From assembly GCA_002780065.1 (NCBI GenBank), contig PEWQ01000046.1:1-9279 (forward strand): a stretch of DNA of 9,279 nt, written 5' to 3'. The DNA comes from Candidatus Hydrogenedentes bacterium CG07_land_8_20_14_0_80_42_17 (lineage in GTDB: Bacteria > UBA8481). This document shows, piece after piece, positions 1,877-9,168 of the stretch (the first letter of the stretch is position 1; every line of letters starts with the position of its first letter). The position numbers and the translations under genes are program-made. The notes under the pieces were generated by a model. It was not told where the DNA came from and did not search any database. It saw nothing but the letters and a program-made list of their open reading frames with translations.

Positions 1877-1913
1877 AAAAAAATAGATCAGCTCAACTTC
1901 TTATACAGCTCTA
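1877..1913 (-). terminator. Weak possible rho-independent terminator after the PHP-TPR gene
   Basis: Starting at the TAG stop, the minus strand can pair TAGAGCT with AGC-(TGA)-TCTA, with a 3-nt bulge, and this is followed directly by seven T residues (A7 at 1877-1883 on the + strand). The stem is short, AT-rich and bulged, so it may be only a partial terminator. If real, it separates the gcv-PHP unit from the sugar genes starting at 1837. Confidence 0.3.
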
Positions 1914-3596
1914 AAGTTTTGCGATTCGTTCCAGAGCGTTATGCGCCTCTTCTATCTTCGAATCATCAGGCGCAATTTCGACCATTCTAAGCAATACAGT
2001 CCTGGCCTCTTCAATGCGCCCTAGCTGTTCTAGACAGAGTCCCTTGCCTAACAGCGAACCCGATATCTCTTTTTCATCGAGCGATCTTTGGAATAATGAG
2101 ATAGATTCCTCATATTTTCCAAGATGAAAATTGCACCATCCTAAATAAGAATAGAGATGCGGCATTCTTTCAAAATATGGTTCTCTCTCAATTATTCCTT
2201 CCAACAGCGATATTACATTCTCATAATTACCCGAATAAAAATTGCACAGCGCAAGATTGTAACGCGCATTCATAAAATCAGGATCAAGTTCAATAGATTC
2301 CTTGAAGCTCTTTTTGGCTAGATCAAATTTACGCTTTCTTTGAGCTTCAAGTCCTCTGATAAAAGCATTCAGTGATTTAGAAACGTGTATAAGCTCAGGA
2401 ACCTTCTCTATTGGAAGTATCTCCGCTCCGCAAGCTCTGCACTCCTCTTCCGACCACATAGTAAAAACCGCATTTTCGGCGCGCCTAACCGGTATCTTCG
2501 AAAAGAGCCCCGGCGCCCGAACTGCTATTGCAAGATCAGGTTCCGGCTTTTGAGGCAAACCGAATATTCCTTTAGCGATCGATGCAACTTCAGGGTACTT
2601 CTCTTCTATTTCCTTTTCTGGAAGAGAAGAAATTCTATGCTGTTCACTGCTCGAAAGCCGCAATGCCGATGCGGCTTTTTCAAAAGCTTTTTTCAAACTT
2701 AAAGGTTTTGTTTTGCCGAGAAAAACATATTCAAGTTTTCCATTCGATGAAGTATCAAATATTTTTTCAGGATTGAGTTCGATAATATCCGCGATCTCAA
2801 TCGTAGCATCGCAGTATTCCGACGGAAATCCGAGACTGCGCATTTCTTCCGCAGATTTGACGTAATATTCATGCTGTTTCAATTCGAACTCGGTTGCCTT
2901 TCCAAAACGCGTCTTGATCACAGTATCGTGCATAAGCCATTCATCCTTGAACTGATAGTGACAGTCATTGGCTAAAACAGCTTTTCTACCGTATCTGCCG
3001 GCAATTTCGCATAATCCCGCGGCCGCCTTTTTTTCCTCTTCCATTCCGTGATTGTAAACTTCAATAAAGAAGCGATCTCCGAACAGATCAGAAAATAGTC
3101 CGTAAAATCTATCCGCCTCTTCAAGTTTGTTCTCTTTTATCGACCAGCCGAGCGGCCCCGCAAGGCATCCCGAAAGGCAGAGCAATCCTCCGTTATATTT
3201 TTCCAGAAGTTTCCAATCAACAAGTCCGAGCTTATGCATCAAACAATTATCTTTCCATGAAAGAGAAGCAATCGTCACAAGATTCTTCCAGCCTTCATTA
3301 TTTTGAGCAATAAGCGTAAGGTGATTTCGATTGTTGATGCGGCGGCGGATATTCTCCTCAGCGTCTTCAACAAAATAAGCTTCCATACCTAGAATAGGTT
3401 TTATTCCGCGTTGCAATGCCTCCCGAACGAATTTAGGAATTATGGAAAGGTCGCCGTGATCAGTCACTGCAAAAGCGGACATGCCAAGCTCTTTCACTCG
3501 ATCGAGCGCTCGTGTAACTCTGAGAATAGAATCCGAATAAGAACCTTCGAGATGATTATGGAGATGAACAAAATCCTGTCGATTCTTCAAAGTCAT
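1911..3596 (-). CDS. DnaE-type PHP phosphoesterase domain, degenerate polymerase-like segment and C-terminal TPR repeats
   Basis: 561 aa. Residues 8 to about 285 are a PHP domain of the kind at the N-terminus of bacterial DNA polymerase III alpha (DnaE). FVHLHNHLEGSYSD opens it, and every metal-ligand position I can match is kept: H11, H13, D46 and H47 (VTDHGD), E72 (GMEAYF), H92 (RNHLTLIAQN), C144 (LSGCLAG), D211 and H213 (ANDCHY). Residues about 296-400 look like a shrunken piece of the DnaE palm region, but the PDxDxDF motif is absent and the third catalytic Asp position is not Asp, so polymerase activity is not expected. Residues about 402-561 hold around four TPR units (for example FDLAKKSFKESIELDPD and YEESISLFQRSLDE), which normally bind partner proteins. 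No signal peptide or membrane span is visible. It starts 2 nt after gcvPB, so it is probably co-transcribed with the glycine decarboxylase genes. Function is unknown; metal-dependent phosphoester hydrolysis is the family-based guess. Confidence 0.85.
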   Translation of the reverse strand: MTLKNRQDFVHLHNHLEGSYSDSILRVTRALDRVKELGMSAFAVTDHGDLSIIPKFVREALQRGIKPILGMEAYFVEDAEENIRRRINNRNHLTLIAQNNEGWKNLVTIASLSWKDNCLMHKLGLVDWKLLEKYNGGLLCLSGCLAGPLGWSIKENKLEEADRFYGLFSDLFGDRFFIEVYNHGMEEEKKAAAGLCEIAGRYGRKAVLANDCHYQFKDEWLMHDTVIKTRFGKATEFELKQHEYYVKSAEEMRSLGFPSEYCDATIEIADIIELNPEKIFDTSSNGKLEYVFLGKTKPLSLKKAFEKAASALRLSSSEQHRISSLPEKEIEEKYPEVASIAKGIFGLPQKPEPDLAIAVRAPGLFSKIPVRRAENAVFTMWSEEECRACGAEILPIEKVPELIHVSKSLNAFIRGLEAQRKRKFDLAKKSFKESIELDPDFMNARYNLALCNFYSGNYENVISLLEGIIEREPYFERMPHLYSYLGWCNFHLGKYEESISLFQRSLDEKEISGSLLGKGLCLEQLGRIEEARTVLLRMVEIAPDDSKIEEAHNALERIAKL

Positions 3597-3598
3597 AA

Positions 3599-4936
3599 TC
3601 AGCCCTTTAAGACCGGATTTCTTGCCGCGCGCGCCTCATCGGGATGTCGTATGATCGTGTTATTCGGAAATTTAGAAATTTCCTCCAGAGAAAGTTCCGC
3701 GATTCTTCTCATCGCAGAAATAAATTCATCAAGCGTCTCCAGATTTTCTGTCTCGGTAGGCTCGATCAGCAGAGCTTCATGAACAAGCATCGGAAAATAA
3801 ATTGTAGGCGGATGGAATCCCATCTGAATAAGCGCCTTTGCAACCATCAACGCATTAATGCCTTTTTCGCGCTTCAGCTTTTCAGCGCTCAGAAGAACTT
3901 CGTGCGCGCAAAATCTTTCGGAGACAAATGAAGGGTAGATATCTTTCAAAGATACTCTGACATAATTTGCCGCAATAACTGCATCTCTCGATGCCCGCTC
4001 GACGCCTTCCGAGCCCAGAGTTTTAATGAATGCCCACGCTCTCACCAGCGCTCCGACATTTCCATTGAAGCCGATAACTTTTCCAATAGAACGCGAAGGC
4101 GAAATCATCTTGCCGCCGGAAAATATCGGACCCGGCAATAAGTCTTCAAGCCCTTTCCTTACTCCGATAGGCCCCGCTCCAGGGCCGCCTCCGCCATGAG
4201 GAACGGCAAAAGTTTTATGAAGATTGATATGTCCGACATCAAACCCCATAGCTCCAGGACTCGATACTCCGACAATTGCATTCAGATTCGCGCCATCGTA
4301 ATACATGAGTCCGCCGGCAGAATGAACCAACTCGCATATCTCCAAAACTCTCTCTTCAAAAAGACCCAGCGTATTCGGATTTGTCATCATCATTCCTGCT
4401 GTGCGGTTCGAAAGATGCCTCTTCAAATCATCGATATCTACGCAGCCGGTCGGCCCGGATTTTATAGTGACAACCTTAAAACCTGCGATCGCCGCAGACG
4501 CAGGATTTGTTCCGTGCGCTGAATCAGGAATGAGCATCTCGTTTCGAATTGAATCGTTTCGGTCTGCATGATATTTCCTGATGATCAAACAGCCCGACAA
4601 TTCGCCGTGAGCCCCTGCGGCAGGCGATAACGAAAATGAAGAGAATCCGCAGAGGTCGGAAAGCATTTCATTTAATTCTGAAAGTATTCTGCGAAGAGTT
4701 CGAGCTTGAGCAGAATCCTCCCCAATCCTCATAGGATGGAGTTCTCGAAGTCCAGGAAGCGTTGAGATAAAATCGCATATTTTAGGATTGTATTTCATCG
4801 TGCAAGAGCCGAGCGGATAGAAATTAGCATCTACAGAAAAGTTAAGAGTTGAAAGTCGAGTAAATCTCCTTACAACCTCGCCTTCTGTTCTGTAAAATTT
4901 TGGAGGTTCGAGTTCAACCTCATTAAATTTTTTCAT
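3599..4936 (-). CDS. gcvPB: Glycine dehydrogenase (aminomethyl-transferring), P-protein subunit 2
   Basis: 445 aa, the PLP-binding half of the split P-protein. With GcvPA it decarboxylates glycine and passes the aminomethyl group to the lipoyl arm of GcvH, in the cytoplasm. Diagnostic segments: YPLGSCTMKYNPKI (40-53), SPAAGAHGEL (104-113), IPDSAHGTNPASA (136-148), MTNPNTLGLFE (184-194), YYDGANLNA (212-220), and HINLHKTFAVPHGGGGPG, where K241 is the expected Schiff-base lysine for PLP. Bacterial GcvPB proteins are usually about 480 aa; the difference is at the N-terminus, where the usual leader before the VVRRFTRLS segment is short. The ATG overlaps the gcvPA stop (ATGA, 4936-4933) and an AAAGG lies about 10 nt upstream, so translation is coupled and subunit ratio is probably set this way. 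The stop is TGA, 2 nt before the PHP gene. Confidence 0.97.
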   Translation of the reverse strand: MKKFNEVELEPPKFYRTEGEVVRRFTRLSTLNFSVDANFYPLGSCTMKYNPKICDFISTLPGLRELHPMRIGEDSAQARTLRRILSELNEMLSDLCGFSSFSLSPAAGAHGELSGCLIIRKYHADRNDSIRNEMLIPDSAHGTNPASAAIAGFKVVTIKSGPTGCVDIDDLKRHLSNRTAGMMMTNPNTLGLFEERVLEICELVHSAGGLMYYDGANLNAIVGVSSPGAMGFDVGHINLHKTFAVPHGGGGPGAGPIGVRKGLEDLLPGPIFSGGKMISPSRSIGKVIGFNGNVGALVRAWAFIKTLGSEGVERASRDAVIAANYVRVSLKDIYPSFVSERFCAHEVLLSAEKLKREKGINALMVAKALIQMGFHPPTIYFPMLVHEALLIEPTETENLETLDEFISAMRRIAELSLEEISKFPNNTIIRHPDEARAARNPVLKG

Positions 4937-6114
4937 CGCGTAACGCCTTTCAGAGATATTTCTCCGAACTCGGGATAATCCAAAATAAATCCGTCTTTTC
5001 CTCGCACAACATATTCGTTGAATATCTCGCCGGAAAAAATTCGTTTTCCGTTCGATTCGATTTCAGCTTTCTTCTTCAAGTTGCGCGCAAGCTCGGAAAG
5101 TCCGGTCTTTCCCATGATGCCAAGAAATAGAACTGCCCTGAGAGCCATCAGAGATTGGTTCGAGCAAATATTCGAAGTTGCTTTTTCGCGGCGAATATGC
5201 TGTTCACGAGTCTGAAGCGTAAGAACGAATGAAGTCTTTCCGTCAGCGTCAACTGTCTTACCTACTATCCTTCCGGGCATGCGCCGCAAGAATTTATTAC
5301 GAGCGGAAATTATTCCGAGAAAAGGGCCTCCTCCTGAAAGCGGAATACCCAGAGGCTGCCCCTCAGCGACAGCAATATCCGCGCCGGATTCAAAAGGAGT
5401 TGGAAAAATACTTACAGCAAGCGGATTAAAAATTTGGACAGCAACAGAATTATTTTTTTGAGCGGCGCAGAAAATATCTTTGATGCCTTCTTCTATTACT
5501 CCAAACACATTCGGAGAAGAGATCACCACGCATGCAGTTTTATCAGAAAGTTCCTCGATCTTTTTTAAAGTCATTCCCGACTTATGATCGAATGCAATCT
5601 CTTTAACTGTCACGCCAATTGGCTCAGCATAAGTCATTATCGTTCTTCTGATATGAGGTGCTACTGTTCGCGCGACAAGAATTTCTTTTCGATTCGTCTC
5701 GGCGCACGACATACGAATCGCCTCTACAACTGCTGTCGCTCCGTCATATAATCCGGCATTCGAAATATCGAGTCCGGTCAATTCGCATATTCGCGTCTGA
5801 AACTCATAAATAGCCGCAAGCGTCCCTTGAGAGCATTCAGGCTGATACGGAGTATAAGACGTTACGAATTCGCCTCGTGAAGCAATGTAATCGACTGCTG
5901 GAGGAATAAAATAATTTCCGACTCCGAAAGCACTTTCCATCTCTTGCAAAGGAATTTGTAAATCACTGATCAAATCAATAGTTTCGGATTCAGAAAGCGC
6001 CGGAAATAATTTTACCGGCGATTTTTTTAAATTCGAAAAGAGCGCTTCTTCAGAAGCTCCGATAGCAGAAAGCATTTTTCGGCGGGCAAAATCGTCATGC
6101 GGAAGATATTTCAT
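4933..6114 (-). CDS. gcvPA: Glycine dehydrogenase (aminomethyl-transferring), P-protein subunit 1
   Basis: 393 aa, the non-PLP half of the split P-protein, partner of GcvPB. It matches the family nearly end to end: MKYLPHD start, GNYFIPPAV (66-74), FVTSYTPYQPECSQGTLAAIYE, QTRICELTGLDISNAGLYDGATA, EGQPLGIPLSGGGPFLG, MPGRIVG, and LTLQTREQHIRREKATSNIC. The usual length is about 440-450 aa. The shortfall is near the C-terminus: after FNEYVV the protein goes almost directly to the DYPEFGEISLKGVTR end, omitting the usual linker helices and stopping where others continue past CVTE with an ID..V helix. Because the TGA overlaps the gcvPB ATG, the shorter end looks like established compaction rather than a recent break. 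It begins 29 nt after gcvH; the upstream SD is weak (A-rich). Confidence 0.95.
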   Translation of the reverse strand: MKYLPHDDFARRKMLSAIGASEEALFSNLKKSPVKLFPALSESETIDLISDLQIPLQEMESAFGVGNYFIPPAVDYIASRGEFVTSYTPYQPECSQGTLAAIYEFQTRICELTGLDISNAGLYDGATAVVEAIRMSCAETNRKEILVARTVAPHIRRTIMTYAEPIGVTVKEIAFDHKSGMTLKKIEELSDKTACVVISSPNVFGVIEEGIKDIFCAAQKNNSVAVQIFNPLAVSIFPTPFESGADIAVAEGQPLGIPLSGGGPFLGIISARNKFLRRMPGRIVGKTVDADGKTSFVLTLQTREQHIRREKATSNICSNQSLMALRAVLFLGIMGKTGLSELARNLKKKAEIESNGKRIFSGEIFNEYVVRGKDGFILDYPEFGEISLKGVTR

Positions 6115-6143: not shown

Positions 6144-6521
6144 TCAAGAGATGATTCCGCGATATTCAGTCGGATTCAATAATCCGTCAGTAGTATCGCA
6201 ACTCATCTCAAATAGCCAGCCTTTGTCGTACGGATTTCCATTCACATCCGCGGGATCGAGCGATTCATTGCAAGCAACAACCGTTCCTGTGACCGGAGCG
6301 TAAACGCTGGCGACAGATTTTACCGATTCGATTTCAGCGGCTGTATCGCCCTTCTCAAGTCTCTTTTCGACCTCAGGCATTTCTACATGAACAATATCGC
6401 CGAGCTCGTGCTGAGCGTAATCAGTTATCCCAACTCTCGCATTGCCATTTTGAAGAAGCAGCACCCATTCATGTTCACGGGTATAAAGAAGATTATCCGG
6501 AACCAAAAGTTCTTTTGCCAT
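6144..6521 (-). CDS. gcvH: Glycine cleavage system H protein (lipoyl carrier)
   Basis: 125 aa, standard length. It carries the aminomethyl group between P-protein, T-protein and lipoamide dehydrogenase on a lipoylated lysine. Visible signatures: YTREHEWV (13-20), VGITDYAQHELGDIVHVEMPEV (30-51), and the lipoylation motif ESVKSVASVYAPVTG with K68 as the modified lysine. The tail NPYDKGWLFEM and LNPTEYRGII is typical. An SD (AGGAA within AGAAAGGAAA, complement of 6527-6536) lies about 6-8 nt before the ATG. It is the first gene of the gcvH-gcvPA-gcvPB-PHP unit; gcvT, which often comes before gcvH, is absent from the adjacent sequence. Confidence 0.97.
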   Translation of the reverse strand: MAKELLVPDNLLYTREHEWVLLLQNGNARVGITDYAQHELGDIVHVEMPEVEKRLEKGDTAAEIESVKSVASVYAPVTGTVVACNESLDPADVNGNPYDKGWLFEMSCDTTDGLLNPTEYRGIIS

Positions 6522-7704: not shown

Positions 7705-9168
7705 ATGACATACACACCAGAATATTTGTTGAAACTTTTGAATGAATTGCGTGCATTACCTAAGGAAACAGAATGGCTTGAGTTCAAACATAATCATATT
7801 GACCATCAGGAAATCGGGGAATATATTTCCGCAATTTCAAATTCTGCTGCTCTTTTCGGAAAAGTCGCAGGTTATCTTATATGGGGTATTGAAGACACAA
7901 AACATGGTATAGTTGGGACTGATTTTCAGCCTAAAAGTTATAAGGTTGGTAATGAAGAATTAGAAAACTGGCTGCTAAGATTGCTTTCTCCCAGAATTAA
8001 TTTTACTTTTTTTGAATTGGAAACAGAGCAAGGCCGAGTTGTAATACTTGAGATTGAACGGGCTTTTAAAAATCCTGTCCAGTTTCAGGGTAAAGAATTT
8101 ATTCGAATTGGATCGTATAAAAAACGATTAAAAGAATTTCCTGAAAAGGAGAGAGAGCTTTGGCGCATATTTGATAAGATTCCATTTGAGGAATTATGCG
8201 CAGTAGAAAAAATCAATACCGATGATGTTCTGCGTCTATTGGATTACCCTGCCTATTTTGAATTGACAAGTCAACCGTTACCGGATAATAAGACAGGTAT
8301 TCTTAATCGGTTTGTTGAAGACTGCTTGATTATACAAGACGCTGCCGGTACATATTCAATAACAAATCTTGGAGCCATTCTATTTGCCAGAAAATTATCG
8401 GATTTCAAAAATCTCAAGAGGAAAGCTGTCAGAGTTATAATCTATAAAAACGAAACTCGTATGGAAACAGAAAAAGAATTACCCGTGAATAAGGGATATG
8501 CATCTGGTTTTATCGGTCTTATTGGATATATAAACGGTATTATTCCAAGAAATGAAATTATTGGGAAAGCATTAAGGAAAGATGTGCCTATGTATCCGCC
8601 AATTGCTATTCGGGAACTGGTTGCAAATGCAATAATCCATCAGGATTTTTTTATCCGAGGTGCCGGGCCTATGATTGAAATATTCCCTGATAGAATGGAG
8701 ATAACTAACCCCGGCAAACCTCTTGTAAAAACAGAGCGCTTTCTGGACAGTCCTCCAAAATCAAAAAACGAGGCGCTGGCTTCTTTTATGAGAAGGATAG
8801 GCGTTTGTGAAGAAAGAGGCAGCGGAGTAGATAAGGCGGTTTTTCAGACAGAAATTTTTCAGTTGCCTGCTCCGTTATTTGAAGTCATTGATAGCAATAC
8901 TAAAGTCACGCTCTTTGCTCACCGGTCATTATCAAAAATGGATAAAGAAGACAGAATCCGCGCTACATATTTGCATTCCTGCTTAAAATATGTGCAGAAA
9001 CAGCATATGACAAATTCCACATTAAGAGAACGCTTTGGTATAGAAAAAGAAAATAGCGCTATGATTTCACGATTTATTAAAGAAGCCCTTGACAAAAAAG
9101 TTATAAAGTTAGTAGATCCTGATAGTGAATCAAGGAAACATACAAAATATGTTCCTTTTTGGGCTTAA
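7705..9168 (+). CDS. Schlafen AlbA_2 domain / HATPase_c_4 ATP-binding protein of a type I RM locus
   Basis: 487 aa, intact. Residues about 15-145 are an AlbA_2 (Schlafen-type) domain: ETEWLEFKHN (21-30, the E-x4-EFK motif), YLIWGIED (57-64) and FIRIGSYKKRLKEF (132-145). A helical linker with ITNLGAILFARKL (219-231) follows. Residues about 295-380 resemble the GHKL-type HATPase_c_4 fold: AIRELVANAIIHQDF (301-315, the N-box with N308 as the likely Mg-binding Asn), DRMEITNPGKPL (329-340), and EERGSGVDKA (369-378, a G-box). The last 70 or so residues look like a winged helix (STLRERFGIEKENSAMISRF then a KKVIKLV strand). Proteins of this build are usually annotated as ATP-dependent DNA helicase-related or transcriptional regulators, and are common between hsdS and hsdR; their biochemical job is not established. 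A DNA/RNA-binding, ATP-using regulator or defence accessory is inferred. It follows the broken hsdS by 71 nt. Confidence 0.85.
   Translation: MTYTPEYLLKLLNELRALPKETEWLEFKHNHIDHQEIGEYISAISNSAALFGKVAGYLIWGIEDTKHGIVGTDFQPKSYKVGNEELENWLLRLLSPRINFTFFELETEQGRVVILEIERAFKNPVQFQGKEFIRIGSYKKRLKEFPEKERELWRIFDKIPFEELCAVEKINTDDVLRLLDYPAYFELTSQPLPDNKTGILNRFVEDCLIIQDAAGTYSITNLGAILFARKLSDFKNLKRKAVRVIIYKNETRMETEKELPVNKGYASGFIGLIGYINGIIPRNEIIGKALRKDVPMYPPIAIRELVANAIIHQDFFIRGAGPMIEIFPDRMEITNPGKPLVKTERFLDSPPKSKNEALASFMRRIGVCEERGSGVDKAVFQTEIFQLPAPLFEVIDSNTKVTLFAHRSLSKMDKEDRIRATYLHSCLKYVQKQHMTNSTLRERFGIEKENSAMISRFIKEALDKKVIKLVDPDSESRKHTKYVPFWA

Follow-up and report, generated by a model that had tools for sequence, protein, structure and literature searches.

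A DnaE-related protein that retains the PHP domain, thumb and distal palm and ends in TPR repeats

The window (the whole 9,279-nucleotide stretch of Candidatus Hydrogenedentes DNA that was analysed) carries on its minus strand, at 1911-3596, an open reading frame of 561 residues. It encodes a PHP domain, followed by a relic of the DnaE thumb and palm and by TPR repeats. The ATG start codon is at 3596, 2 nt away from the stop codon of gcvPB, and has upstream of it the sequence AAAGGG, which resembles a ribosome-binding site. Because of this short gap and the upstream motif, the gene is probably co-translated with the three glycine cleavage genes that precede it on the same strand: gcvH, encoding the H protein (6144-6521; Pfam GCV_H, E 4e-33), gcvPA, encoding glycine dehydrogenase subunit 1 (4933-6114; Pfam GDC-P, E 1e-95), and gcvPB, encoding subunit 2 (3599-4936; Pfam GcvP2_C, E 1e-23). 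The downstream neighbours, also on the minus strand, encode an RmlC-like dTDP-sugar isomerase (1376-1837; Pfam PF00908, E 4e-21) and a GT4 glycosyltransferase (265-1371; Pfam PF00534, E 8e-29). On the plus strand, 7705-9168 encodes a protein in which a Schlafen/AlbA_2 domain is combined with a RecG-C-like HATPase, and which has weak PADLOC matches to Argonaute-associated models. The PHP protein of the window matched none of the PADLOC defence models, and a Pfam search detected no cyclase domain in it. The same genome (G000) has a separate full-length DnaE, encoded on another contig (C159).

Residues 9-274 (2775-3572, minus strand) form a DnaE-type PHP domain (Pfam PF02811, E 3.7e-37). All nine metal ligands of active DnaE PHP domains are present as the preliminary description had listed them (H11, H13, D46, H47, E72, H92, C144, D211 and H213), and the pattern HHDHEHCDH is identical in all seven members of the family described below. 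The published "active" PHP metal pattern is HHDHEH[C/H]DH (PMC12926913). The profile match and the nine ligands together place the protein in the PHP phosphoesterase family (PF02811). Since the ligands are invariant in the seven members, they would form an active three-metal site, and the intact ligand set indicates that the domain is most likely an active phosphoesterase. Every high-scoring NCBIfam model over this part is DnaE or PolC; the nucleoside-bisphosphate phosphatase model reaches only E 0.0025. The matches to the DnaE models (E 1e-56) are confined to residues 6-276; none exceeds 192 bits, and the cut-offs of these models lie at 434-1806.

The segment that links the PHP domain to the TPRs had been proposed to follow the order of DnaE. 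The match to DnaE does extend beyond the PHP domain. A profile of the seven linkers aligned to 41 DnaEs with hhalign (E 3.2e-11, probability 97%, score 82.6), collinear with DnaE columns 420-542, which begin directly behind PDxDxD and extend to the GLLK motif. In 150 column shuffles the score did not exceed 22.2, and the reversed alignment scored 14.7, so that the agreement in order is above chance. The window linker by itself matches the DnaE profile weakly (E 0.09). The value is 6e-3 when L006 is included, 8e-7 for the linkers of L007 and L038 as a pair and 6.5e-6 for a profile of four sequences, and all of these matches fall at the same place in DnaE. The homology of the linker to DnaE was proven only once relatives were joined to the window sequence. 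A search of the six-frame translation of 386 genomes with a linker-only HMM returned the family members at the top, followed by ORFs of DnaE size. The motifs could be located at 29 loci. Most matches there start 19-41 residues past PDxDxD and reach about 12 residues into the TQ..GLLK stretch, the exceptions being partial matches or contig ends. One weak match (L076, E 0.009) lies in an unrelated, non-DnaE protein.

The relic spans about residues 275/286-396 and is mostly thumb and second palm segment; the end of palm segment 1, the thumb and palm segment 2 occupy residues 286-396 (2409-2741, minus strand), as delimited by hhalign and structure. Both the GPGRG loop and the PDxDxD motif with its two catalytic aspartates are absent from the ORF, in agreement with the loss of PDxDxDF noted earlier, and the deletion that removed them lies at about residues 275-286. 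The fingers, HhH, clamp motif and OB domain of C-family polymerases are not present in the window protein either.

The structure of the protein was predicted with AlphaFold2. In the input alignment DnaE sequences were restricted to the PHP domain, which left the linker unsteered, and only four sequences covered the relic. The model has a mean pLDDT of 93, with values of 92-97 across most of the linker. Residues 4-395 superpose onto residues 1-555 of E. coli DnaE (2hnh) over 380 residues, with a deviation of 2.7 Å and a Z score of 45.5, and residues 6-397 superpose onto residues 7-589 of Mtb DnaE1 (5lew) over 387 residues with a deviation of 2.3 Å. The last pair in the VIA alignment to 2hnh is Pro395 of the window protein (2412-2414, minus strand) and E. 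coli residue 555, which we take to be the third catalytic aspartate (D555) of Pol III. The suspected replacement of this aspartate by proline is thus borne out. Among the relatives, L006 has an aspartate at this position; the others have proline or glutamine. Folded alone, the linker is predicted with a pLDDT of 88, and its 19 top Foldseek hits are all C-family polymerases (DnaE or PolC), with nothing else below E 1. The corresponding VIA alignment, of model residues 6-130 to residues 437-591 of 5lew, has a modest Z score of 6.6.

In Mtb DnaE1 the PHP domain extends over residues 1-300, the palm over 301-450 and 543-591, and the thumb over 451-542, with catalytic aspartates at 421, 423 and 587 (PMC5636811). 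Read against these limits, the superposition of the model shows that the losses are palm segment 1 and all of the polymerase beyond the third aspartate, and that the PHP domain, the thumb and palm segment 2 are kept. The linker had been described as DnaE palm. This holds for its distal part, which corresponds to palm segment 2 (Mtb 543-591), but the linker is mainly thumb (Mtb 451-542) and not palm alone.

Residues 405-561 (1914-2384, minus strand) form a superhelix of four to five TPRs (Pfam, E down to 2.8e-16), made of the tandem 34-residue helix pairs that define TPR proteins. Structural alignment to solved TPR proteins gave Z scores of 17-20. The TPRs stand in for the rest of the polymerase, as had been supposed.

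The family comprises seven proteins from six genomes and three candidate phyla; these six genomes are the only ones with a member among the 386 that were sampled. Besides the window protein (G000), the members are L006 (53% identity over the full length) from G001, labelled Candidatus Hydrogenedentota by its depositors, L007/L039 and L038 from the Lindowbacteria genomes G030 and G177, L130 and L171 from contigs C511 and C219 of G270, and L170 from G133. The groups sampled are small: members occur in 2 of 2 genomes of the window's phylum, 2 of 3 of that of the Lindowbacteria and 2 of 2 of that of G270. The relatives retain both the PHP ligands and the linker, and the complete order of PHP domain, relic and TPRs recurs in L006, L170 and L171. 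Profile, structure and homologs thus agree that the protein is a polymerase remnant with a PHP domain and a TPR tail, as first proposed. The linker matches DnaE, its predicted fold is that of C-family polymerases, and the relatives share it.

A scan of the genome contigs with the single protein gave no match; a scan with an alignment then gave L037-L039. The short ORFs in L022, L028 and L033, considered as relatives, were rejected as DnaE genes cut off at the edge of the locus. In the Lindowbacteria members (L007:385-1400 and L038:8500-9583) there is a C-terminal extension, part of which is unassigned and which ends in a weak match to PilZ. G270 carries two divergent copies, L130 and L171, one of which is fused to cyclase domains.

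Five family members, all those known before L170 and L171 turned up, were placed in a tree with 46 DnaE-type sequences. The five members form one clade (support 100/99) apart from all 46 DnaE-type sequences, and the DnaEs of G000 and G001 fall on the DnaE side. The separation of the family from every DnaE in the tree, including those of two of its hosts, shows a single ancient origin for the five members tested, so that they are not recent truncations.

The surroundings of the gene vary between members. Where no Pfam search was run on a gene outside the window, its name is taken from its translation. The window has glycine cleavage and sugar genes, G001 a methyltransferase and RmlD, and L170 and L171 have argC and ackA as neighbours. 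The order argC, PHP-relic-TPR gene, ackA is conserved in G133 and G270 (L172:5770-9830 and L173:5582-9768). In the Lindowbacteria the gene stands between MoxR or PilT and a cyclase. In G001 a GGDEF diguanylate cyclase (L037:10482-11210) is encoded two genes from the PHP protein on the opposite strand.

A connection to nucleotidyl cyclases is seen in part of the family. In L130 of G270, the PHP domain, relic and TPRs are the N-terminus of an ORF that continues into two cyclase domains and an AAA domain (CYC-CYC-AAA) until the contig ends. The two cyclase domains are of the class III nucleotidyl type, and the cyclase part matches the PycC models of PADLOC. In both Lindowbacteria genomes the convergent neighbour gene encodes a separate CYC-CYC-AAA-TPR protein. 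In the 386 genomes this neighbour is most similar to proteins of G177 and G001 (40% along most of the length); the relative in G000 is a fragment at a contig end, and G312, a genome without the PHP protein, gave no relative at E 1e-20. In the cyclase tree, five genomes with the PHP relic and one other genome fall into one clade (support 87/92). G213 has a cyclase of that clade but no PHP protein, and the relic protein is absent from 16 genomes of its phylum. The PHP-relic protein probably works with a class III cyclase-AAA-TPR protein in at least one branch of the family. However, cyclase-AAA-TPR proteins are common (matches in 71 of 386 genomes) and, given also the cyclase of G213, the co-occurrence is suggestive and not a proof. 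The cyclase is not adjacent to the window copy, to the copies beside argC and ackA, or to that of G001. A second cyclase set, distinct from that linked to the PHP relic, is found in six genomes (G000:C150, G001:C133, G030:C1, G177:C16, G270:C440 and G312:C100); it consists of a pair of adjacent ORFs, each roughly 0.8-1.2 thousand residues long, that encode class III cyclase domains.

The window protein is a C-family polymerase (DnaE/PolC) by descent, with homologous and collinear PHP domain, thumb and palm segment 2. It is probable, although by no means certain, that it represents a DnaE descendant that is unable to polymerise and has kept a PHP phosphoesterase, a thumb scaffold and a TPR dock. 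Sequence and model show that palm segment 1, with two of the catalytic aspartates, has been removed and that TPRs have taken the place of everything beyond the third aspartate, whereas the PHP domain is retained together with the thumb and palm segment 2. The PHP site would bind three metals and hydrolyse a phosphoester, and the TPRs would attach the enzyme to a partner. In DnaE the PHP domain has the thumb resting on it (PMC3666897), suggesting that the PHP site needs the thumb, which may have been kept as a scaffold and as a wall of the active site. By analogy with the PHP domains of DnaE and PolX, the chemistry is most likely phosphodiester cleavage on a nucleotide substrate. Candidate substrates would be, in order, nucleic acid 3' ends, cyclic nucleotides, and small phosphates or phosphoproteins. 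The PHP domain and relic carry no excess of positive charge such as would argue for nucleic acid binding.

What such a phosphoesterase would do in the cell can be read in several ways. It might be a 3'-5' nucleic acid exonuclease that acts in DNA repair or trims RNA, a C-family counterpart of the noncanonical PolX enzymes that the TPRs join to a repair or decay complex. This reading is tentative and less likely than not. The PHP motif is of the active type, 3'-5' exonuclease activity is proven for the PHP domains of DnaE and PolX, and PolX that is dead as a polymerase is an exonuclease as well (PMC9226535, PMC5636811). However, no DNA-repair genes were seen beside the copies examined, whose neighbours belong to glycine cleavage, arginine and acetate metabolism and sugar genes, and the RD of IRDVGR and the H of HAAG in the DnaE thumb are not retained. 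A cyclic-nucleotide phosphodiesterase or other signalling hydrolase paired with the class III cyclase, destroying or reading its product and connected to it by TPR and AAA parts, appears rather unlikely. It would account for the fusion in G270, for the adjoining cyclase gene in both Lindowbacteria and for a cyclase clade that is nearly confined to genomes with the relic and includes G001, and the PilZ-like end of L038 would suit it. Yet that PilZ match falls under the Pfam cut-off, the clade is small, the cyclase lies apart from the PHP gene in G001 and in the window genome, and some co-occurrence is expected for so common a protein. The fuller version, that a replicative polymerase has turned into a signalling phosphodiesterase with a thumb-roofed PHP site in one pathway with the CYC-CYC-AAA-TPR cyclase, must be regarded as doubtful.

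A phosphatase for small molecules or proteins (histidinol phosphate, nucleoside bisphosphate or, as in CpsB, phosphotyrosine), serving metabolism or glycan synthesis, would fit the sugar and glycosyltransferase genes that follow it in the window, RmlD in G001, and argC and ackA around L170 and L171. These neighbours vary by lineage, however, and the PHP domain is of the DnaE type, not that of CpsB or HisJ, with high scores only to DnaE and PolC models; a role of this kind seems unlikely. That the gene is a decaying truncated dnaE, produced by a frameshift or an assembly join and devoid of function, is hardly credible, as nothing beyond the missing parts speaks for it. The frame is open, the genome has its intact DnaE elsewhere, and seven members in three candidate phyla share the same deletion and invariant ligands, those in the tree forming one clade with long internal branches. 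The pseudogene or artefact reading was rejected on this conservation.

The DnaE descendant with a retained PHP site can be compared with several known systems. One of these is DnaE itself (PDB 2hnh, 5lew and 4iqj), with which it shares a superposable PHP domain, thumb and palm segment 2 and the end of palm segment 1, but unlike DnaE it lacks the body of palm segment 1 with GPGRG and PDxDxD, the third aspartate, the fingers and the remainder, and it ends in TPRs. In PolX-like and noncanonical PolX proteins the polymerase is likewise dead and the PHP active site retained (PMC12926913, PMC9226535). The window protein does not belong to the X family, however, in which the PHP domain is C-terminal and the polymerase is of another family; here the PHP domain is N-terminal and strong polymerase matches are to DnaE and PolC only. 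Whereas PolX-like proteins have lost the whole polymerase domain, the window protein retains the C-family thumb and distal palm and adds TPRs. The PHP fold and metal site are shared with HisJ, with the CpsB/Wzb tyrosine phosphatases and with RNase AM/YciV; the PHP domain of RNase AM is among the Foldseek hits of the model (E 5e-5). In contrast to the window protein, stand-alone PHP phosphatases lack a DnaE relic and are far in sequence from DnaE-type PHP domains. The order CYC-CYC-AAA-TPR of soluble-adenylyl-cyclase-like proteins is shared by the fused part of L130 and by the Lindowbacteria neighbour gene; the window protein, unlike these, has no cyclase.

Surveys of the C family report members with a dead PHP domain, not loss of the polymerase with the PHP domain kept (PMC3919608, PMC12926913). 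A survey of 2013 excluded fragments in which the polymerase site was not intact (PMC3919608), and another dropped truncated sequences ahead of tree building (PMC12926913), so that proteins of this kind could go unseen. The X family offers the parallel: PolX that is dead as a polymerase, and PolX-like proteins, still have the PHP nuclease (PMC9226535, PMC12926913). No description of the corresponding C-family case was found in the open-access literature. The domain order, which the preliminary description did not recognise as a known one, is not unique to the genome of the window, since the small family that has it extends over three candidate phyla. Polymerases of the C family are essential enzymes; in the family described here the outcome is the reverse of PHP loss and parallel to that in PolX. 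It provides a natural unit of PHP domain plus thumb, in which PHP chemistry is separable from polymerase activity, and the fusion to a nucleotidyl cyclase hints, in a way open to test, that a replication domain may have taken on a new role.

Searches of plasmid and phage proteins gave PHP matches, mostly to DnaE or unannotated proteins. A scan of viral contigs found DnaE genes, many of them split, among which no relic protein was identified. In the phage DnaE genes (L080:4977-6278, L103:4953-6386 and many others of L080-L124) the first ORF stops soon after GPGRG, just before the place of PDxDxD, and in L080 a later ORF has an intein-like stretch. This suggests split inteins at the polymerase active site of phage DnaE genes.
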